Shown here one piece after another: positions 5,944 to 19,743 of a stretch of 24,797 bases of DNA; positions within the stretch are counted from its first letter, which is position 1, and each line of letters opens with the position of its first letter. Source of the DNA: a virus. The DNA is taken from positions 1 to 24,797 of the IMG/VR virus record IMGVR_UViG_3300021961_000600. One strand, given 5' to 3'. The notes under the pieces are model-generated. The model saw only the letters and a program-made list of their open reading frames with translations, was not told where the DNA came from and made no database searches. Both the position numbers and the translations under genes were made by a program.

Positions 5944-6116
5944 TGGCAAACGTATTGCAAATTAGTTTGTGGGTTACCCTATTGTGCAAAGCATGCAGCG
6001 GAACTGGCATAGAGTGGCGCGAGCGTTTGCGGTTCGATGTAGAGGGCGATTTGCTAGAAGTGCGCGTTAGCACTGTGCATACATGCGAAGTTTGCACAGG
6101 CACAGGAAAGCAGTAA
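5943..6116 (+). CDS. DnaJ-type zinc-finger microprotein, 57 residues
   Basis: It is coupled to its neighbour by TAATG. It carries two copies of the CxxCxGxG motif: CKACSGTG at residues 15-22 and CEVCTGTG at residues 49-56, separated by a charged linker (IEWRERLRFDVEGDLLEVRV). In DnaJ and related proteins, pairs of this motif bind zinc and support protein-protein or substrate contacts. Here the pair stands alone with no J-domain. Its exact target is unknown; a small zinc-binding adaptor or chaperone-interfering protein is possible. The two motifs and the start/stop coupling make it a confident gene despite its size. Confidence 0.75.
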   Translation: MANVLQISLWVTLLCKACSGTGIEWRERLRFDVEGDLLEVRVSTVHTCEVCTGTGKQ

Positions 6117-6119
6117 CCA

Positions 6120-6491
6120 ATGCAAGCCGCTAAAACGGATAGCAACCAAAACGAAATTGTGCAAGCGTTTAGAGGCATGAATTGCACAGTAGCATTGTTG
6201 CATGCAGTTGGAAAGGGAATACCAGATTTACTGGTTGGTTGCAGAGGGGTAAATTTACTAGTAGAGTGCAAAATAAAAACAGGCGTGCTAAACCTAATGC
6301 AAATAGAATGGCACAAGCATTGGAGCGGGCAGGTAACAGTTTGCCGAAGCGCAAACGAGGCAGCCGATTTAGTTTTTGAGACTTGGGATAAAATTGGTTA
6401 CTTGCCGCTTACGCCTGACCTGCCGAAACTAAGCCTAACTACAAAAATGATACAGGCGTTAGTAACACGCCATAAAGGAAAAAAACAGTAA
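6120..6491 (+). CDS. VRR-NUC-like PD-(D/E)XK nuclease
   Basis: This is a 123-residue protein. The core GKGIPDLLVGCRGVNLLVECK contributes P35-D36 and E49-x-K51, with an upstream helix containing E12 (SNQNEIVQAFRG), the expected order of a PD-(D/E)XK active site. The following MQIEWHKHWSGQVTVCRSAN matches the usual tail of the VRR-NUC/Holliday-junction-resolvase-like group. It probably cuts branched or recombining DNA during phage replication or packaging. AGGAA upstream serves as ribosome site, and the stop shares a base with the next start (TAATG). Confidence 0.8.
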   Translation: MQAAKTDSNQNEIVQAFRGMNCTVALLHAVGKGIPDLLVGCRGVNLLVECKIKTGVLNLMQIEWHKHWSGQVTVCRSANEAADLVFETWDKIGYLPLTPDLPKLSLTTKMIQALVTRHKGKKQ

Positions 6492-6781
6492 TGCAACTAT
6501 CTAAGAACGTAAACCAATTTATGCAAAATAAAATGCGCGTGGCAAAACTTGCCATAGCCGTATTTTGCGCAGCGGCGCTAATTACCCTGCTTGCTAATGC
6601 GCCGCGCACTAGCCAAGCAACCAGCGTAACGCCTGCCATTGCGCCAACTGCCACAGTTGCGCCAATGGTAGTAGGGCAGCCAATGATGCTTACAGATGCA
6701 AACGGTAATACGTTTATGATTATGCAGGGCAGCACGTTTTTTGTGTTTCCAAAACAGGAACCTACACAAAACCCAAAATAG
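6491..6781 (+). CDS. Membrane-anchor/secreted N-terminal protein, zero-frame product
   Basis: This is a 96-residue zero-frame product. A basic N-terminus precedes a hydrophobic stretch at residues about 16-36 (VAKLAIAVFCAAALITLLAN), a signal peptide or signal anchor. Next come a Thr/Pro/Ala-rich linker (VTPAIAPTATVAPMVV) and a short ordered part with MMLTDANGNTFMIMQG. It stops at TAG 6779-6781, immediately after the slippery codons CCA AAA. The -1 frame from 6778 is open for 157 more codons and encodes a 3D-type domain, so this gene is best read as the short form of a frameshifted pair. Alone it would be a small exported or anchored protein. Start by TAATG coupling. Confidence 0.75.
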   Translation: MQLSKNVNQFMQNKMRVAKLAIAVFCAAALITLLANAPRTSQATSVTPAIAPTATVAPMVVGQPMMLTDANGNTFMIMQGSTFFVFPKQEPTQNPK

Positions 6782-6816
6782 CAAGCCTGCAAATTGCGCC
6801 AACTGCAATTGCAGGC
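6772..6816 (+). other. Probable programmed -1 ribosomal frameshift signal
   Basis: The heptamer C CCA AAA (6772-6778) is in register with the zero-frame codons and is followed at once by TAG. After a 6-base spacer comes a stem: GCCTGCAA (6785-6792) with TTGCAGGC (6809-6816). It continues past one bulged A with TTG (6794-6796) and CAA (6806-6808), closing a 9-base loop. Heptamer, stop, spacer length and 11-bp stem match the textbook arrangement, and the same heptamer serves the tail chaperone at 19453-19459. A lost base in the A-run is the alternative. Confidence 0.75.
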
Positions 6817-7251
6817 GAACCAATAGAAACGCCACAACCATTCCAGCCGTTGCCGAGAGTAGGGCAATATCAAAACCTAAAACTGCGCCTTAGTTATTAC
6901 AATCCAGCATTGGGCGGCACTAATTGCCATCCTGCAAATTGGGTTGCGGCGCATAATGGCATGCAAGGCGTTTGCAAGTCTTTACTGTTGGGCGAGCCGT
7001 GGTCTACGTGGTTAAATATTGGGGCAGCCTGCCCGATGAGTATTCCATTGCGCAGCCGTATTTACATAGAGGAACTAAACAAAAGTTTTTATTGCGTTGA
7101 TAGAGGCGGGGCAATACAGGATTTGCCAGACGGCAGCAAGTTTATAGACCTGTTGCAGAAAAGCGCGGCTTGGTATCCAGACGCGGTAATTGTTACTGAC
7201 AGGTATTGCCCTAGCGGTTGTTTTCTCGCTAACGGCTATGTGCTAGAATGA
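6778..7251 (+). CDS. 3D-domain (double-psi beta-barrel) enzyme, -1 frame extension
   Basis: Entered from 6778 by -1 slippage, it adds 157 residues to give a fused product of about 253. After a Pro/Thr linker comes LRLSYYNPALGGTNC, then ACPMSIPLRSRIYIEEL, FYCVDRGGAI (D204 of the fusion) and KFIDLL (D220). This is the pattern of the 3D domain, a double-psi barrel related to lytic transglycosylases of the MltA type that cleave peptidoglycan. Five or more cysteines suggest disulfides outside the membrane, consistent with the N-terminal signal anchor. The frame has no ribosome-served start: the first candidates are a TTG at 6850 without Shine-Dalgarno and a late ATG at 6961. It is coupled by ATGA to the next gene. 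Confidence 0.75.
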   Translation: MASLQIAPTAIAGEPIETPQPFQPLPRVGQYQNLKLRLSYYNPALGGTNCHPANWVAAHNGMQGVCKSLLLGEPWSTWLNIGAACPMSIPLRSRIYIEELNKSFYCVDRGGAIQDLPDGSKFIDLLQKSAAWYPDAVIVTDRYCPSGCFLANGYVLE

Positions 7252-7765: not shown

Positions 7766-7954
7766 ATGGATAGCAAATTGCAGGGCGTTTTGAAAAGCCG
7801 TAAGTTTTGGGCGTTGGTTGCTTCGCTGGTTGCGATTATTGGCGGGTTTTACACAGGGCAAATTCCAGCACAGGATGCAGCCAACAATTTAGTTATTGCG
7901 CTGGCGGTTTACTCTATTGCTACTGGCATAGATGATAATGGCAAAGGCAGCTAA
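7766..7954 (+). CDS. Small membrane protein, possible holin
   Basis: This is a 62-residue protein with AAAGGAAA before its ATG. A basic N-terminus (MDSKLQGVLKSRK) precedes a hydrophobic span at residues 14-30 (FWALVASLVAIIGGFY). After a polar loop (TGQIPAQDAAN) a second hydrophobic span covers residues 41-54 (LVIALAVYSIATGI). Two short spans, small size and location beside a peptidoglycan-enzyme-like gene fit a holin, which forms the membrane lesion that releases the lysin. No family-specific signature is visible. It overlaps the next gene by 23 bases. Confidence 0.6.
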   Translation: MDSKLQGVLKSRKFWALVASLVAIIGGFYTGQIPAQDAANNLVIALAVYSIATGIDDNGKGS

Positions 7955-9227
7955 CACAAGCAATAAACAAATAGAAACGCTGGCAGACCTGACACCTGAC
8001 ACGCGCAACGCCCGCAAGCACAACCCGCGCAACGTTGGCATGCTGGAAAAGTCCCTAAACGAGGTTGGGGCTGCTCGCAGTATTGTTATAGACGAAAACG
8101 GCGTTGTGCTGGCGGGCAATGCAACCATCGAAGCCGCAGGGCGGGCAGGCATTGAGCGCGTGCAAGTGGTAGACGCGGACGGGGAAACAATCGTTGCAGT
8201 GCGCAGAACAGGGCTAACCCAAACGCAAAAAACAAGGTTGGCACTATACGATAACCGAACCGCAGAACTGGCAGATTGGGATGCAGACGTTATTGCAGAC
8301 CTAATGGCAAATGAGCGTGCAATGCTGGATGGGCTATTTGAGAATAACGAGTTATTAGAACTAATCGAAAATATAGACCAGACGGGCAGCGCAGACGCGG
8401 AACCGCAGATAGATAGAGCCGCAGAACTAAACGAGAAGTGGCAGGTAAAACCGCAAGACCTGTGGCGCATTGGTAACCATCGGCTGCTATGCGGCGATTG
8501 CACAGTGCGCGAGGATGTGCAGCGCGTTATGGGCGGCGAGCAGGCGCAAATGTGTTTTACAAGTCCGCCTTATAATCAGCAATTACAAACACAATCCCAA
8601 CCAACAGGCATGCACAAAAACAATAAATGGTTTAACCGTTTAGATGCAGCCTATGCAGACAATATGCCTGAAAGCGAATATCAAACTTGGCAGGTAGAAG
8701 TTTTAAATATCGTTTTCGATGTGGTAAAGGAAGGCGGCGCGTGTTTTTACAATCATAAATACCGATACAGAGAACGTCGCCCGATTGTGCCGTTAGATTG
8801 GATACGCAAAAGCAATTGGGAAATGAGACAGGAAATTATTTGGGATAGGGGCGGCGGAGTTGCTGCCAATGCGGAAATGTTTATTCCAAGCGATGAGCGT
8901 ATTTATTGGCTAGAAAAAACAGGGATGCACATTTGGAATGGTATCGGGATTAATAGCACAACGGTTTGGTCCATTCACCCACAAGCTAATAATGGCACTC
9001 ATGTTTGCCCGTATCCATTGCAATTATTACAACTGCCAATTTTATGCGTTAGCAACGAAGGCGCAATAATTGTAGACCCATTTTTGGGCAGCGGAACTAC
9101 AATGGTTGCTAGTGAGAATTTACAGCGCAAATGTTTTGGAATAGAGATTAGCCCGAACTATTGCGCGGTAATATTAGAACGCATGCAAACCGCGTTTCCA
9201 GCGCTGGCGATTGAGCGCATAACATAG
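7932..9227 (+). CDS. ParB-like domain fused to an N4/N6 DNA methyltransferase
   Basis: This is a 431-residue protein. Residues about 15-115 are a ParB/Srx-like domain (NARKHNPRNVGMLEKSLNEV, then DENGVVLAGNATIEAA). The rest is an amino-methyltransferase: CFTSPPYN at residues 208-215 (catalytic motif IV), a region with WDRGG near residue 304, and DPFLGSGTT at residues 382-390 (AdoMet-binding motif I). Catalytic motif before binding motif is the beta-class order. It adds a methyl group to adenine N6 or cytosine N4 in duplex DNA; the target sequence is unreadable from here. ParB-methyltransferase fusions are common beside phage terminases. Role options are protection from host restriction or marking DNA for packaging. 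ATG 7932 or 7938 could be the start. Confidence 0.88.
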   Translation: MIMAKAANTSNKQIETLADLTPDTRNARKHNPRNVGMLEKSLNEVGAARSIVIDENGVVLAGNATIEAAGRAGIERVQVVDADGETIVAVRRTGLTQTQKTRLALYDNRTAELADWDADVIADLMANERAMLDGLFENNELLELIENIDQTGSADAEPQIDRAAELNEKWQVKPQDLWRIGNHRLLCGDCTVREDVQRVMGGEQAQMCFTSPPYNQQLQTQSQPTGMHKNNKWFNRLDAAYADNMPESEYQTWQVEVLNIVFDVVKEGGACFYNHKYRYRERRPIVPLDWIRKSNWEMRQEIIWDRGGGVAANAEMFIPSDERIYWLEKTGMHIWNGIGINSTTVWSIHPQANNGTHVCPYPLQLLQLPILCVSNEGAIIVDPFLGSGTTMVASENLQRKCFGIEISPNYCAVILERMQTAFPALAIERIT

Positions 9228-10786: not shown

Positions 10787-13700
10787 TTGAGCTACACAAA
10801 AACCAAACTGTTTGACGCTGGCATAAGCAGCAAAAGCGTTATTGCTATTCCTGCTTGGGCGCAACAGATGATAGACAATGGCGGCGAAGTAAATTCCACA
10901 GTAGACGCTTATAACAAAACTCCGCAGCTATACAGGGCGGTTCAAATGCGGGCAAATGCATTGGCGGCAATGCCATTTGTATTGCGCAAAAACGACAAAC
11001 TAACCTCGTGGATATACCCGCAATCGCTAAACAAAATCCTGTTTGAAATGGAAGCCTCGTTACTTGTAAGCGGCGCGGCTTACTTGCTAAAGATGCAACC
11101 CACAAACGGCGGCAAGCGCACAGTTGGGTTGCAGGTGCTAAACCCTACAACGATGCGCACAACCTACGACCACCGAACACGGGAAACCCTGTTTACCCAA
11201 CAGATTAGAAACGAAACGTTTGGACCGTGGCAGGCAGACCGCTTGGTTTATATGCGCGAGTTTAGTTTTCAAGACGAAGTAGGCGCAGGCATTGCGCCTG
11301 CAAAGGTTGCGTTACCTGCTGCCATTCTACGAATTGCAATGAGTGATTTTGCACACGGGTTTTTTAGCAGTGGCGGGCAGCCGCTAACCCTGCTAAGCAT
11401 GCAGGGCAACCCGCCGCCACAGGAAATAGAACGCACTGAAAGGTTTTTCAAACGCACAATGCAAGGGGTACGCAACGCGTGGCGCGTGCTGGCAGTTAGA
11501 AGCGAAGTAACCGTTACGCCAATTACACCTGCCCTAAATACAATGGCAATGGAGGAATTGCAGACAGTTACAACGCGGGAGATTGCAAGCGCGTTTGGTA
11601 TTCCACTAAGCCTGCTAACCAGTGATAGCGCCAACTATGCAACTGCAATATCAGACCAGCGCATGTTTTACGAAAACACAATCAAGGCGCGGTTGCAGTT
11701 TTACGAGGATGCATTCAATACCCAACTGCTAAACGAAACGCAAACTACTATTCGGTTTACGCCCGAAAGCCTAAGCGTATACCAAGAGGACGAAGCAGAG
11801 CGCAGTAACGCATTGGTAAACCTAGTAAACGCTGGAATGCCATTGCGCGATGCAATGCTTATATTGGGCTATAGCGTAGAGGAAGTAACAGGCACAGATG
11901 CCACAGTAGAAACCATTAGCAACGATGCGCCCGTGGTTATTGCCAAAAGCAAGAAGCCTGCAACCGTTAGTTTGCAAGAGCAACTAGCAGACGAATACGC
12001 AAATGCAACCCACGTGCAACAGGTGAAAGCCGAACTAAAAACTTGGCAGCGCGTGGCGGCAAAATCCATTGAGCGCGGCAGGGAATTTGAATGCCTGCAA
12101 ATACCGCCTGAATTGGAAACGTTTATAAAATCACACTTGCAGGAACCGAGCGCATATTTAGAACACGTATTCGAGGACGGGGTTATAAAGAGTTTGGTTT
12201 TGCAGACCAAAGCAGAGAAAGCAGTTGCGGCAAAAGTGCGGGCGGTATTCAAGCAATATGGCAACCAGATAAAAGCAAAGGCGGCACGCGGGATTGTAGA
12301 CCATGTAGCAGCCGATGAGATGTTTAGCACGCTGGCAAAAAGAATAACGCCCGTGCTAACCAATGTTTACACAACGCAAATACAGGCAACCGAAATAGAA
12401 ACAGGCGTACCGCTGGATACCGAGCGCTACCAAACTGCCGCGCAGGAATGGGCGGCAAAATATAGTTATGGGGAACTAAAACTTAACCTTACAGCTACAA
12501 CCATAACTAACGTGCAGCGCATGGTAAGTAAGCTAGTGCAAGACCCAACGCTAACGCCCGCAATGGTTGCGGCGGGTTTGTTTCCAACGTTTAGCGATTA
12601 CCGCGTGGCAATGATTGCCACAACGGAAGTAACCAGAGCCAAGAGCGCAGCAGTAAACGGTTATTACGATGGGCTAACAGAGGATGGGTTAGACGTTGTG
12701 CGGCGTTGGGGTACAAAGCTAGACGAAAAGGTTTGCCCGATTTGCGGACCGTTGGATAATAAAAAAGAAGAAACATATAAAAAAAAATTCAATGACGGAC
12801 CGCCCGCCCATCCCAATTGCCGTTGCAGAATAGGCGTTGAGGTAAAAGCGGAGAACACAGAGGAAGGGCGCGGAGAAGTTATTGCGCCAACGATACCGAA
12901 GCCGAAACCAGTAAAGCCCGTTGCGCCCAAGCCAGTTATTGCAGTGCCAACAGTTGCGCCTGTGGCAGTTGTGCCGCCGTTGCCTGCTGCGGTATTGCCT
13001 GCCAAACTACAAACAGGAAAAGAAATATTAGACCTCGTAAAAGAGTTGGCAGCCAATGACCCTAAGCGTATAGAAACAAGCAGGCTGCGCAAACAGTTAG
13101 CGGAATTAGACGCGGCGTTTCTTAAGTTTGTGCAAAAACCAAAAATTCAACGTAGTAATTTTAGTAGTTCGGACGAATATTGGGAAGCATACAATAAAGA
13201 CTTCGACGAATATAAACGACTTAAGGCAGAGCTAGACGACGCCAAAACAGTTTTCCGCGCAGCAAATATTAGCATACAACTAAAAGTAGGCGAACTGCTA
13301 GCGGTTCAAAATTCAATACCTATAAAATTAAGCACTGACCCTGAATTTGCGCAATTGCAACCGTTAACAGACAAAGACTTATTAACAAAACGCGAGGAGC
13401 AAATTGTAAAATATATTTCTAGTTGGGTGAACCCTGCTATTGTGCCAAACGCGCAAACTTTTGGGACTTTGTATAGCACAGATAAAACACAAGGAAGTTT
13501 TTACAGCCCAACCAGTTACCGCAAAAGTTTTATTAACTTTGGAAATAGTTATACTGACGTTTCAATTGTGCATGAGTTAGGGCATTTTATAGATAACGAA
13601 ACTTTAGCAATAAACAAAACAACGGGGCTAAAGGAAACTACAAATGTAGCTACTAAGAAGTTTTTCGACAAACGAACCTCTGGTGATAAGTTAGAGCTAT

Positions 13701-13921
13701 TAAGTAGCGCATTACCAGCATCGGGGTATACAGAGGATGATAAATACAAGCGCGATAAATGGCGCGATGCGTACACAGGCAGAGTTTATAAAAATTCAGA
13801 TGATACGGAAGTGTTATCTAATGGAGTGGGCTATATGTACGTAGATGCAGTAGGGTTTGCGGAATTTGACCCGCAGCATTTCGAAGCAACAGTAAACTTG
13901 TTGCGAGGTATTGCGCCATGA
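10787..13921 (+). CDS. Portal-MuF-zinc metalloprotease fusion protein
   Basis: This 1044-residue protein starts at a TTG with GAGG 8 bases before. Residues about 1-390 are an HK97-type portal (AYNKTPQLYRAVQMRANALA near 42; IASAFGIPLSLLTSD near 265). Residues about 600-690 are a MuF/SPP1-gp7 domain with zinc ligands C650, C653, H675, C678 and C680 (VCPICGP, HPNCRC). A Pro/Val/Lys-rich linker (about 700-745) and a coiled coil follow. The C-terminal part has HELGH at residues 929-933 and TEVLS with E1008, the layout of a gluzincin metalloprotease. MuF proteins are ejected with DNA and often carry toxin domains. Fusing portal, MuF and protease in one chain is unusual. The last 260 codons are AT-richer than the rest. 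Confidence 0.85.
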   Translation: MSYTKTKLFDAGISSKSVIAIPAWAQQMIDNGGEVNSTVDAYNKTPQLYRAVQMRANALAAMPFVLRKNDKLTSWIYPQSLNKILFEMEASLLVSGAAYLLKMQPTNGGKRTVGLQVLNPTTMRTTYDHRTRETLFTQQIRNETFGPWQADRLVYMREFSFQDEVGAGIAPAKVALPAAILRIAMSDFAHGFFSSGGQPLTLLSMQGNPPPQEIERTERFFKRTMQGVRNAWRVLAVRSEVTVTPITPALNTMAMEELQTVTTREIASAFGIPLSLLTSDSANYATAISDQRMFYENTIKARLQFYEDAFNTQLLNETQTTIRFTPESLSVYQEDEAERSNALVNLVNAGMPLRDAMLILGYSVEEVTGTDATVETISNDAPVVIAKSKKPATVSLQEQLADEYANATHVQQVKAELKTWQRVAAKSIERGREFECLQIPPELETFIKSHLQEPSAYLEHVFEDGVIKSLVLQTKAEKAVAAKVRAVFKQYGNQIKAKAARGIVDHVAADEMFSTLAKRITPVLTNVYTTQIQATEIETGVPLDTERYQTAAQEWAAKYSYGELKLNLTATTITNVQRMVSKLVQDPTLTPAMVAAGLFPTFSDYRVAMIATTEVTRAKSAAVNGYYDGLTEDGLDVVRRWGTKLDEKVCPICGPLDNKKEETYKKKFNDGPPAHPNCRCRIGVEVKAENTEEGRGEVIAPTIPKPKPVKPVAPKPVIAVPTVAPVAVVPPLPAAVLPAKLQTGKEILDLVKELAANDPKRIETSRLRKQLAELDAAFLKFVQKPKIQRSNFSSSDEYWEAYNKDFDEYKRLKAELDDAKTVFRAANISIQLKVGELLAVQNSIPIKLSTDPEFAQLQPLTDKDLLTKREEQIVKYISSWVNPAIVPNAQTFGTLYSTDKTQGSFYSPTSYRKSFINFGNSYTDVSIVHELGHFIDNETLAINKTTGLKETTNVATKKFFDKRTSGDKLELLSSALPASGYTEDDKYKRDKWRDAYTGRVYKNSDDTEVLSNGVGYMYVDAVGFAEFDPQHFEATVNLLRGIAP

Positions 13922-14154: not shown

Positions 14155-14717
14155 TGGCAGAAAAGGAAGCAGGCATTAGTTTTGAGAATGTGCAAGCGTT
14201 TATAACTGCATTGTCTACAATGCCAACGAAAGAAATTTTGCGGGAGTTGGTAAACCAAACCAGCATAAAAGCACGCGAGCGGATTGCGCTAAGACCAGCG
14301 CCAACAGGGGTAACGCCAAACACAAGCGGGTTGCATAGCACAGGCAATATAAAAACTCCGCAACGCGCATTCTATGCACGCGGCGAAGGTGGGTTTTATG
14401 TGCGCAAGAATGGCAGCATGAAACCTAGCAAAAAACGCTCGCAGGATTTGCAACAAAGCTGGCGGCGGGAAAGCACATTATCGGGGCAGGGAATGGTTGT
14501 GGATGTTAGAACCACGGTAAGCTATGCAGGTTACGTGCAAGGCGGAACCAATGACGAAATCGGGCAAAGCCAAGTTATGAAGGATAGAGGCTGGCAAACA
14601 ACCGATGCAGTGGCGGCAGACGTAGAACAGGAAGCGGGAAAGATAATGAATAACGTATTTCGCGCCAAATATAGTGAATGGCTTACAAGCCATGGAATAA
14701 CCAACACAGTTGCCTAA
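14154..14717 (+). CDS. HK97 gp10-like head-tail joining protein
   Basis: This is a 187-residue protein starting at the TAATG overlap. After a helical N-terminus (ENVQAFITALSTMPTKEILR) comes RIALRPAPTGVTP, later SQDLQQSWRRES, then TTVSYAGYVQGGTND and a C-terminal helix. The pattern ALRPAP...SQ.L...W...YA.YVQ.GT is typical of HK97 gp10-type proteins, which close the connector or terminate the tail tube. Its place between the MuF and capsid genes is somewhat forward of the usual position after the connectors. The Arg/Lys-rich middle may contact DNA or the portal. Confidence 0.65.
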   Translation: MAEKEAGISFENVQAFITALSTMPTKEILRELVNQTSIKARERIALRPAPTGVTPNTSGLHSTGNIKTPQRAFYARGEGGFYVRKNGSMKPSKKRSQDLQQSWRRESTLSGQGMVVDVRTTVSYAGYVQGGTNDEIGQSQVMKDRGWQTTDAVAADVEQEAGKIMNNVFRAKYSEWLTSHGITNTVA

Positions 14718-14727
14718 AGGAACTAAT

Positions 14728-17520
14728 ATGGATGCGCCACAATCAACCCTAAGCCCGAAAAAACCAAAACGGATGCCTACGTACCCACGTGAAAAAGCAG
14801 AACACGAGGAATACACAGAGGGCGCAGCCTGCCCAATAGAAACGCAGGATGTAGCGGCAAACCTAGCCAACAGGCAGAAAGCAATTGAGGTTGCAAACTA
14901 TGGACCGTTAGACCCAAGCGAACCCAACACGGAATATTGGCAGGCAGCCGCAGACCGTTGGGAGCTAAGCGTTGAGGAAGTGCAAACTGCGCGTTGTGGC
15001 AATTGTGCTGCATTCAATATCACAACGCCAATGCAGGAATGCATAGCAGAGGGCGTAGGCGGCAGCGAAGCCGAAGCAATGGTAGATGCTGGCGCACTAG
15101 GGTTTTGCGAAGTGTTTGATTTTAAATGCGCGGCGGCGCGGCGCTGCGATGGTTGGATTGTTGGCGGACCGATAACCGATGAGTTGGCGAAATCATTTGA
15201 ACCAGAACCAACAGACCCTAACGATGCAGACGGTTACGAGGAATGGGCAGATGAGGAGCCGCAAGTTGATTTTAGGAAAAACAATGGTAATATGGTTGCG
15301 CCTGCAATAAAGATTGCAGCGCCGCAATGGATGCGGGCTAATGCGCGGCGCGGCTTGGAGTGGGTGAAAGAGGGCAAGGGCGGCGGAGGGCTAACCGCGC
15401 AGACAATGCAGGAAGCGCGTACAATGGCTGCAGGCACGGTAAGCGATGATAAGGCAATGCGAATGGCAGCATGGTTTGCACGGCACATGGGAGATTTGGA
15501 AGCGCCTGCCGCAACTGTAGGCGCAGAGGGTTACCCTAGCAATGGAGTTGTGGCGCATGCATTGTGGGGCGGCGGTTCGGTTACAGATAGCGAGCGGGCG
15601 GCAGGTTGGGCGCGGGAGCGCAGCGCAGGCGATGGAGAAGCAAAAGCAAAGTATGGCGCGGCTGCGCGGCGCGATATGATGCCTAGCGATTTTGTGCTAA
15701 GCGATGAGCGCAAATTTCCAATAATGGATGCAGAGGATATTACGGCAGCGGTAAACAGTTGGGGCAGGTACAAAGGGCGCGTTACGTTTGCGCAGTTTAA
15801 AGAGCGGCTAACGCGGTTGGCAAAGCGCAAAGGTTTAGATAGTGCGTTGCCGCAGGCTTGGAGAGTTGATTTAATGAAAACAGTAAACGAAAATTTTATT
15901 GGCGGCGAAGTAAAAGCGTTGGGCAATGGCAAGTTGGGCGGTTACCTAGTGCGGTTCACCACAGAGGCGCAACCAGACTTGCAGGGCGATTACTTTACAA
16001 AGGATACCGAACTAGGCACGTTTACAGACCTGCCCGTTTTGTATCACCACGGCGCAGATAAAACTATTGGCAAGCGCGTTATTGGGCGCGGCACAATCAA
16101 GCAGGATGCAATCGGGCTATGGGTAGAAGCACAGTTGGCAATGCGCGATGAGTATGAAAAAGAAATTTACGCATTGGCAGAAAAGGGCGCGTTGGGTTGG
16201 AGTAGCGGCGCAGTTAGTCATTTGGTAGAACGCGAATATAAATCTGAAAAAATCGCGTGGGTAAAAACGTGGTGGATTGCGGAAGCAAGTTTAACGCCAA
16301 CGCCTGCCGAAGCGCAGAACGAAGCGTTTACTATAAAGGGGAATGTTATTGCAATGCCAGAGGAAGCGCAGCCCGTTTCGGCAATGCAAACACAAACCAT
16401 TAGCGATGATACAGAAACATTAGAGGAAACTAAAACAACTATGGAAGCAAACGATGTTACGGAATTGAAAGCGCAGATTGCGGCGCTTACTGCGATTGTA
16501 AACGAGCCAAAGGTTGAGGCAGGCAAAATGGCTCCAGTAGTAAAGAGTTTGGGCGGCGACCATGACGGCGGAAACGCATTCAAGCATTGGATACGCACAG
16601 GGCAAATGAATTACTACACGAAAAACAACGAGCAGGATTGGAGCGCAACCAAGACGAATGCGTTGAATGAAGCCACAGGCACAGAGGGCGGTATCCTAGT
16701 GCCAGAGGGTTTGAACGCAAGCATTATTGCTAAGCGCGATGAGATGAGCGTTATCCGTGCAAATGGCGCATTGGTTATTACAACCAATTTGGATACTGTG
16801 CAAGTGCCAGTGGAAAACGCCCGCATGACAACTGCGATTGTTGCAGAGAGCGGAAGTTATGTGGCGGCAGAGCCAACGTTTACAAGCAATAGCGTTACGG
16901 TTTACAAGTTTGGCAACCAGTTGCGCCTTACCGATGAGTTGCTTGCAGATAACCAGACTAACCTTATGCCATACCTTAGCAATGGGCTTGGGCGTGCATT
17001 TGGTTTGATGGAAAACCAATACTGCATTGCAGGCACAGGCAGCAGCCAGCCAAAAGGTTTGCTAACGGGCGGCACTGCGGCGATTACTGCCGCCAGCACA
17101 ACGGCGATTACCGCAGCAGAGTTGGTAAGCCTTTACCATTCACTGCCAGAACCCTACACAACTAACCCAAATGAAGTTGTGTTTATTACTCGTAATGCAA
17201 CGCTTGGCGCGTTGCGGGCGCTTGCTTCGTCAAGTGTGTTTACATTCAATTTGCAGCCGCAGGGCGACCAAGGTGCGCAGCAGTTGTATGGACACAAGGT
17301 AGCGGTTAGCGGTTATATGGAAGCCGCCACAACTGGCAAGAAATCCCTGCTGGTTACTAACCTCGCTGCTGGTTACATTCTCATTGAGCGGGCAGGAATG
17401 GTAATGAGCCGTAACCCATATTTGCTGCAGGCAACAGGTCAAGTTGCCCTGTTCACAACGATGCGGTTTGGCGGCACTACCACGGTTGCCGAAGCAACGC
17501 AAATTCTTACACAGGCGTAA
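14728..17520 (+). CDS. Cys-rich domain, middle domain, prohead protease and major capsid fusion
   Basis: This is a 930-residue protein. The ATG at 14728, with AAAGGAAC upstream, is preferred to a TTG at 14710. Residues about 80-150 are a Cys-rich module (ARCGNCAAF, LGFCEVFDFKCAAARRCDGW). Residues about 195-390 are a Gly/Ala-rich middle domain (SNGVVAHALWGGG). Residues about 390-560 are an S78-type prohead protease with H440/H441 (VLYHHGADK) and S492/S493 (LGWSSGAVSH). A short coiled coil at about 565-595 is scaffold-like, and from about 600 an HK97-fold capsid protein follows (TGTEGGILVPEGLN, NQLRLTDELLADN, MRFGGTTTV). The protease would cut itself and the scaffold away during maturation. Encoding protease and capsid in one chain ensures a 1:1 ratio. 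Confidence 0.9.
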   Translation: MDAPQSTLSPKKPKRMPTYPREKAEHEEYTEGAACPIETQDVAANLANRQKAIEVANYGPLDPSEPNTEYWQAAADRWELSVEEVQTARCGNCAAFNITTPMQECIAEGVGGSEAEAMVDAGALGFCEVFDFKCAAARRCDGWIVGGPITDELAKSFEPEPTDPNDADGYEEWADEEPQVDFRKNNGNMVAPAIKIAAPQWMRANARRGLEWVKEGKGGGGLTAQTMQEARTMAAGTVSDDKAMRMAAWFARHMGDLEAPAATVGAEGYPSNGVVAHALWGGGSVTDSERAAGWARERSAGDGEAKAKYGAAARRDMMPSDFVLSDERKFPIMDAEDITAAVNSWGRYKGRVTFAQFKERLTRLAKRKGLDSALPQAWRVDLMKTVNENFIGGEVKALGNGKLGGYLVRFTTEAQPDLQGDYFTKDTELGTFTDLPVLYHHGADKTIGKRVIGRGTIKQDAIGLWVEAQLAMRDEYEKEIYALAEKGALGWSSGAVSHLVEREYKSEKIAWVKTWWIAEASLTPTPAEAQNEAFTIKGNVIAMPEEAQPVSAMQTQTISDDTETLEETKTTMEANDVTELKAQIAALTAIVNEPKVEAGKMAPVVKSLGGDHDGGNAFKHWIRTGQMNYYTKNNEQDWSATKTNALNEATGTEGGILVPEGLNASIIAKRDEMSVIRANGALVITTNLDTVQVPVENARMTTAIVAESGSYVAAEPTFTSNSVTVYKFGNQLRLTDELLADNQTNLMPYLSNGLGRAFGLMENQYCIAGTGSSQPKGLLTGGTAAITAASTTAITAAELVSLYHSLPEPYTTNPNEVVFITRNATLGALRALASSSVFTFNLQPQGDQGAQQLYGHKVAVSGYMEAATTGKKSLLVTNLAAGYILIERAGMVMSRNPYLLQATGQVALFTTMRFGGTTTVAEATQILTQA

Positions 17521-19180: not shown

Positions 19181-19465
19181 ATGCAACTAGCCAACGATAG
19201 GTTTGGTTTGCAATGGGAAGTTGTAGAACTAAAGCAACGGCACATTGAAAAATTTTCCGAACTGCATAAAGAGTTTGAGGAAGGTTTACCAATGCCAAAA
19301 TATCGGGGGCAGGTTGTAAGGGCGGCAATAGAAAGCGGTTGGTTTTCGTTTCCAGTTGTAACCGCTGCGGATGTGGCAGAACTAAAAGCCGCAGCGGTTC
19401 GCTGGTTGAGTGAACGCATAACAGATATTTATGTAGAGGCAAACGAGATTGACCCAAAAGTTTAG
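19181..19465 (+). CDS. Tail assembly chaperone G-like, zero-frame
   Basis: This is a 94-residue protein placed between tail tube and tape measure, the fixed position of lambda-G-type tail assembly chaperones. The sequence is mostly helical (FSELHKEFEEGLPMPKYRGQ, then AADVAELKAAAVRWLSERIT). Such proteins coat the tape measure during tail growth and are absent from the virion. The zero-frame reading stops at TAG 19463-19465, two codons after the slippery heptamer, and a minority product continues in the -1 frame. Confidence 0.75.
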   Translation: MQLANDRFGLQWEVVELKQRHIEKFSELHKEFEEGLPMPKYRGQVVRAAIESGWFSFPVVTAADVAELKAAAVRWLSERITDIYVEANEIDPKV

Positions 19466-19509
19466 TTGAGGCGTTGCGCTGCGCCCGCGATGGGAGCGCA
19501 GCGCCAACG
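19453..19509 (+). other. Programmed -1 frameshift signal, tail chaperone G/GT
   Basis: The heptamer C CCA AAA (19453-19459) is in register with the zero-frame codons GAC CCA AAA GTT TAG. A strong stem follows after 12 bases: CGTT (19472-19475) with AACG (19506-19509), one bulged C, and GCGCTGCGC (19476-19484) with GCGCAGCGC (19496-19504). Slippage by -1 continues as AGT TTA GTT GAG into the downstream frame. G/GT frameshifting at this locus is well established for long-tailed phages. Confidence 0.85.
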
Positions 19510-19743
19510 GCACTAAGGTTGGCTTGGCAATCCGAGCGTTGGGGCGCATTACCAGAGGCAGGCGGGTTGCTAGACCAGCCCGCAGGCTTATTAAATAAAA
19601 TGGCTGCAGTAAGTAATGTTTACAATGCATTTGTTACCATGCAGAGGCACACGGGGCAGCTAGTGCAATTGGCAAATTCTAATCCACAAGTAATAGCAAC
19701 TGTTCGCAGAATAGAAAAATTGGAAGCAAAATTATATGGCTGA
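19459..19743 (+). CDS. Tail assembly chaperone T part, -1 frame extension
   Basis: Entered from 19459 after -1 slippage, it adds about 94 residues for a fused GT product of about 187. The T part begins SLVEALRCARDGSAAPTALR and includes LAWQSERWGALPEAGG, later a helical stretch (VSNVYNAFVTMQRHTGQLVQ) and RRIEKLEAKLYG. In lambda-type systems the T part recruits tail tube subunits. Its end overlaps the tape measure start by 8 bases. An independent start (TTG 19474) has no ribosome site. Confidence 0.75.
   Translation, partial: SLVEALRCARDGSAAPTALRLAWQSERWGALPEAGGLLDQPAGLLNKMAAVSNVYNAFVTMQRHTGQLVQLANSNPQVIATVRRIEKLEAKLYG

Follow-up and report, generated by a model that had tools for sequence, protein, structure and literature searches.

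We report a viral gene that is divided between two reading frames and is very probably expressed by programmed −1 ribosomal frameshifting, which would yield two anchored proteins, a short one and a longer form active on the cell wall. The gene lies in a 24,797-nucleotide stretch of DNA, called the window in the following (IMG/VR record IMGVR_UViG_3300021961_000600). Its split arrangement, the conservation of this arrangement, the selection acting in each frame, the recurrence of the split with in-frame slippery heptamers and the fold of the domain model are observed. The original prediction, made from the letters alone, had already proposed frameshifting at this site, and it gains support from a split that is conserved and always in the −1 direction, and from heptamers that recur, the slippage itself being inferred.

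According to the proposed mechanism, most ribosomes would probably terminate at the stop codon that follows C_CCA_AAA, yielding a 96-residue membrane-anchored protein. A fraction of them would be paused by the hairpin 6 nt downstream, and tRNA-Pro and tRNA-Lys would re-pair on CCC AAA. After the slip, 157 more codons would be translated to give a protein of about 253 residues, consisting of the anchor, a linker and a 3D-like double-psi-barrel domain, with the latter located outside the membrane.

Slip site and overlapping frames

The relevant features are collected in Table 1. As criteria for frameshifting we used a stimulatory structure about 5–9 nt downstream of the heptamer, a downstream frame that is open, at −1 and without a conserved start of its own, and conservation under selection among relatives, and these are met.

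Table 1. Positions of the features in the window.
Feature	Position	Strand	Remarks
ORF1, zero frame, 96-aa signal-anchor protein	6491-6781	+	synonymous-biased change in frame 0
−1 frame	6709-7251	+	open 6709 to 7248; post-shift part 157 codons (6778-7248)
Slippery heptamer C_CCA_AAA	6772-6778	+	X_XXY_YYZ register in zero frame; invariant in clades 1 and 2
Spacer TAGCAA, 6 nt	6779-6784	+	opens with the zero-frame stop: TAG in the window, TAA in L003/L004
Putative stimulatory hairpin	6785-6816	+	13 bp, one bulge; outer GCCTGC/GCAGGC common to clade 2
Small hydrophobic protein, holin-like by eye	7766-7954	+	a comparable protein comes after the 3D gene in L043, L047 and L048
C_CCA_AAA in tail-chaperone ORF pair	19453-19459	+	ORFs 19181-19465 and frame ending 19743

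The zero frame can indeed be followed in the sequence from ATG 6491 to a TAG (6779–6781) standing directly 3′ of the heptamer, as predicted. The span of the downstream stem and the 6-nt spacer had also been given correctly, but not the 11 bp: the hairpin has 13, arranged as 8+5 around one bulged A. Its folding energy is −18.3 kcal/mol (z −3.6), and a structure of equal stability was found in none of 200 shuffled sequences. Spacers of 5–9 nt are usual, and the related C_CCA_AAG is highly shift-prone in E. coli (PMC5009743).

It should be stressed that the heptamer alone is not unusual, with six copies of C_CCA_AAA in the window against 6.06 expected, and the case rests therefore on the arrangement, that is position and structure, and on conservation. 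These exceed chance; the mere presence of the heptamer does not. An alternative slippery reading, A_AAC_CCA at 6769, was discarded, being disrupted in the relative L002. We also note a direct repeat, ATTGCGCCAACTGC, at 6638–6651 and 6793–6806, with one copy in ORF1 and the other within the hairpin; judged from this repeat only, the stem region may have originated by local duplication.

The post-shift product consists of a P/T-rich linker and the 3D-like double-psi-barrel domain (about 6886–7248). There are six cysteines in this part and it lacks its own signal, and the domain is for these reasons most sensibly fused to the ORF1 anchor; the cysteines would point to a protein exported via that anchor. 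Immediately upstream of the slip site, ORF1 carries a short juxtamembrane module (DANGNTFMIMQGSTFFVFP). A similar module is joined directly to the domain in the single-frame relative L051, so that the split gene appears to encode two halves of one protein. In pairwise shuffle tests, an equally good match was obtained in 0 of 2000 cases for L050–L051 and in 1 of 2000 for window–L051, and window–L050 was also significant. A family-profile test of the module against shuffles was not significant, and we claim the link only for these three pairs. The N-terminal ORFs of L065, L067 and L068 have a different juxtamembrane motif, D-x-D/N-G-D-G, which resembles calcium-binding loops.

Conservation and selection in two close clades

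Clade 1 comprises, besides the window, the relatives L002, L003 and L004, which come from other metagenome records and represent two further haplotypes (L003 and L004 are alike over the stretch). The frame break is kept in all of them without a single indel across 821 aligned bases, and heptamer and hairpin are invariant, the zero-frame stop being TAG or TAA. Codon changes after the shift point, counted in the −1 frame for three pairs, have synonymous to nonsynonymous ratios of 25:1, 24:4 and 27:5, while the same stretch read in frame 0 gives 1:26, 5:22 and 6:25. For ORF1 in frame 0 (window against L003), the numbers are 8 synonymous and 1 nonsynonymous codons. The synonymous bias in each proper frame means that both halves are maintained, each in its own frame. 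Between the window and L002 there are 0 substitutions in 218 bases (6491–6708) but 28 in 468 bases (6781–7248); recombination or extra constraint can be suggested for the substitution-free part.

Clade 2 (L021, L023, L030 and L032) was found by a scan for the motif C-V-D-R-G-G-A-I, and its proteins are 57% identical to those of the window over ORF2 and 58% over ORF1. The break here reads CCA AAA CCG TAA, placing the stop one codon later than in the window. The heptamer and the 6-nt spacer are retained, as is the outer stem GCCTGC/GCAGGC; the inner stem has a different sequence with its pairing preserved.

Two observations would have spoken against the original prediction, namely five A at the slip site, or close relatives with one continuous frame and no heptamer. 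Neither was made: every contig of the two close clades has four A, no relative has five, and the close relatives keep break, heptamer and hairpin. Relatives with one frame and no heptamer do exist at a greater distance; L047 and L048 come nearest, with 60–65% identity in the domain.

One can also consider that the locus consists of two separate genes, with the 3D domain produced by reinitiation or from a non-standard start and working apart from ORF1. The stop and the −1 frame do overlap closely, the window has a TTG at 6850, and the −1 frame of clade 2 contains an in-frame ATG; an AUA overlapping the stop, CUG and AUU were considered as well. However, the candidate starts vary by lineage and have no visible Shine-Dalgarno sequence. 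TTG 6850, the only common start codon near the beginning of the −1 frame, was rejected as the start of the domain, since it is lost in L003/L004, where CTG is found, which upholds the prediction that the 157 codons open after the heptamer have no start served by ribosomes. Furthermore, the product would be anchorless despite its six cysteines, whereas single-frame relatives have their own anchor, and the heptamers would be left unexplained. We consider the two-gene explanation improbable.

Split and single-frame members of the wider family

The domain alignment served as the query against viral contigs and prokaryote genomes, and the family members found include a record from Anaerolineaceae (L072), other Chloroflexota and some Patescibacteria. 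The members among Chloroflexota make bacteria of this group the probable host of the window virus, but this is an inference. L072, from Anaerolineaceae bacterium BD1, has a single-frame homologue (about 6001–6753) with two tandem domain copies, the second of which is degenerate.

Many members have anchor, linker and domain all in one frame, and eight lineages are split: clades 1 and 2, L050, L064, L065, L067, L068 and L073. In every one of the eight the domain is at −1 relative to the anchor, and in none at +1. An in-frame slippery heptamer is located within the overlap in seven of them, compared to 0.39 expected (P about 1e-9). This P value is approximate, since the background was taken from mechanical open frames of the same loci and the lineages were treated as independent. 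Outside the two clades, the heptamers are C_CCA_AAA in L050, C_CCU_UUG in L064, C_CCU_UUU in L065 and C_CCU_UUA in L067 and L073; in L068, also split, a strict heptamer is missing. The downstream hairpins reach only moderate significance in L050 and L073, and no convincing one could be seen downstream of the slip site in L067. In the 16 single-frame members tested, neither C_CCA_AAA nor C_CCU_UUN occurs upstream of the domain; two of them have a heptamer of the G_GGA_AAN or G_GGU_UUN type. The split gene of L073 (5603–6297), in a Woesebacteria MAG, is apparently chromosomal rather than phage-borne; downstream of it, at about 7917, lies a gene whose product resembles an undecaprenyl-diphosphatase.

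On the maximum-likelihood tree of the family, five state changes are needed, four of which are forced by well-supported branches, and a single split clade is rejected (p-AU 1e-4). The tree is based on 116 columns, and the exact history of splitting is uncertain. At the level of sequence, tree and heptamer statistics together show repeated gain or loss of the split −1 arrangement, not error.

The break might also be an artefact of sequencing or assembly, or mark a gene that was broken recently; this had to be considered, because the records are metagenome contigs and the six split lineages outside the two clades are represented by one contig each. The identical break is, however, present in eight contigs of two clades, its stop codon has been altered and yet retained, purifying selection is seen on either side in the proper frames, and the shift is always −1 and accompanied by heptamers. 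The same kind of slip site in distant relatives suggests a real use of frameshifting, and we regard error as practically ruled out. Only slightly less remote is transcriptional slippage at the A-run as the source of the frame change. Polymerase slippage usually requires longer runs; the one present here has just four A, other lineages have CCCTTTN, and the distance of the hairpin, 6 nt, agrees with pausing of the ribosome.

A different question is what the short product does, if programmed frameshifting takes place. In a corrective variant, which we hold to be possible but not probable, a fixed deletion is tolerated owing to slippage at the site, and no function attaches to the short product. 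The existence of single-frame relatives, among them the syntenic L047 and L048, agrees with this, and implies that not all such phages need two products. Distinct heptamers in separate lineages and the kept hairpin argue instead for selection, the importance of the short form being unproven. As a sub-question of the same mechanism, this variant has a likelihood that overlaps with that of programmed frameshifting itself. With similar reservation we put forward that the short anchored module is itself functional. The inferred slippage rate would then set the ratio of enzyme-less to enzyme-bearing anchors, in mixed assemblies or through competition for wall or membrane sites, and would time or place the opening of the wall; such regulation would have been acquired or lost on several occasions in the family. 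The roles put forward in the original prediction, a fixed short:long ratio that sets lysis timing or a short form that buffers the long one, are speculative.

Further searches were less productive. In wider genome searches, no additional split member was present among the matches examined, the weaker ones (L094–L102 and L106–L136) being incompletely checked, and the last viral scan with the domain alignment gave no new family member. Megablast and tblastn returned no direct match to a phage record, and the terminase relatives L008–L010 (37–42% identity) have no homologue in the stretches examined.

Predicted activity, gene context and known systems

A structure model of the domain from 13 homologues has a pLDDT of 85.5, while one built from three near-identical rows was useless (35.5). 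The criterion of a double-psi beta-barrel fold (3D/MltA/RlpA) is met by the good model, whose best structural matches are mostly such barrels: RlpA-like PA4485 (4avr, Z 6.7), YuiC (5.9) and MltA (5.2). The original reading of a wall enzyme with signal anchor and barrel domain is supported by this model. The barrel of the expansin EXPA is also matched, and the list further contains two baseplate proteins and cerato-platanin. Since Z values of 5–6.7 are in the middling range, the fold assignment rests on the consistency of the list.

The YuiC residues used for comparison are D151, the catalytic D162 and S3/Y5 (PMC4499186). In the alignment, D151 and D162 have counterparts in D72 and D88, which are two of the three conserved 3D aspartates, the first being replaced by Cys49. 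S3/Y5 correspond to T91/Y93, and the structural alignment with YuiC, which begins at residue 89, also suggests this. Neither half of the window gene has a Pfam match, including to the 3D model (PF06725), which gives a weak match in 2 of 31 family members (best E 0.0089). A PDB sequence search found no match for the window protein and no meaningful one for the family profile. The inferred enzyme activity is probably that of a lytic transglycosylase acting on peptidoglycan.

The next gene (nuclease-like) and the small holin-like membrane protein are common to the window, clade 2 and the single-frame L048, and L047 shares the latter. The small protein has no significant match to a holin family, and in L050 a recognised holin (Holin_LLH) is encoded shortly downstream of the split gene. 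This neighbourhood suggests, without demonstrating it, a role in wall opening or lysis, which remains an inference. At 7932–9227 lies a gene for an N6/N4 DNA methylase whose N-terminal domain is ParB-like.

Conserved frameshifting in phages is well documented mostly for tail chaperones. The window contains such a pair as well (19181–19743), upstream of the tape measure gene and with a strong hairpin. Its heptamer is the same, as predicted, and is correctly placed for a −1 shift; L007 has retained both heptamer and hairpin. The pair is likely a second −1 frameshift of this phage. Two fusions in single long ORFs were also noted, of a portal with a Mu-F-like domain (10787–13921) and of a prohead protease with the major capsid protein (14710–17520).

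In a wall-enzyme family that alternates between split and single-frame states, the purpose of frameshifting can be studied by comparing naturally matched versions. If the mechanism is real, the catalytic half of these proteins is overlooked by annotation pipelines in phages that infect Chloroflexota and related bacteria, and the ratio set in translation becomes a point at which control of wall opening by the phage can be tested.

In the open-licence literature, no matching case was found in titles and abstracts on frameshifting together with endolysins or wall hydrolases, and a survey of frame transitions lists no wall enzymes except a Mur ligase entry (PMC3711429). As only open-licence papers were covered, priority is not established. 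The mechanism is known; that a family of membrane-anchored wall enzymes should use it repeatedly is apparently undescribed in the literature searched.

In PMC10885494, lysins appear only through a Lactococcus phage lysin described as two overlapping genes (Shearman et al. 1994) and cited among genes containing a frameshift. This is likewise a phage wall enzyme, but the description available mentions neither an anchored 3D family nor slippery sites that recur. Mycobacteriophage Ms6 lysA, as far as its citation in PMC10700055 goes, also has two wall-enzyme products per locus, but from an embedded in-frame endolysin gene and without a frame change. With the 3D-domain lytic transglycosylases, such as B. 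subtilis YuiC and MltA, the window domain shares the double-psi barrel and two aspartates, and it differs from them by the Cys at the first aspartate, the six cysteines and the lack of a significant Pfam 3D match. The tail assembly chaperones of the lambda gpG/gpGT type are similar in having an X_XXY_YYZ heptamer and two nested products from a phage gene. Here, however, one product is a membrane anchor and the other an anchored protein resembling a wall enzyme, and the split state of the family comes and goes among relatives.
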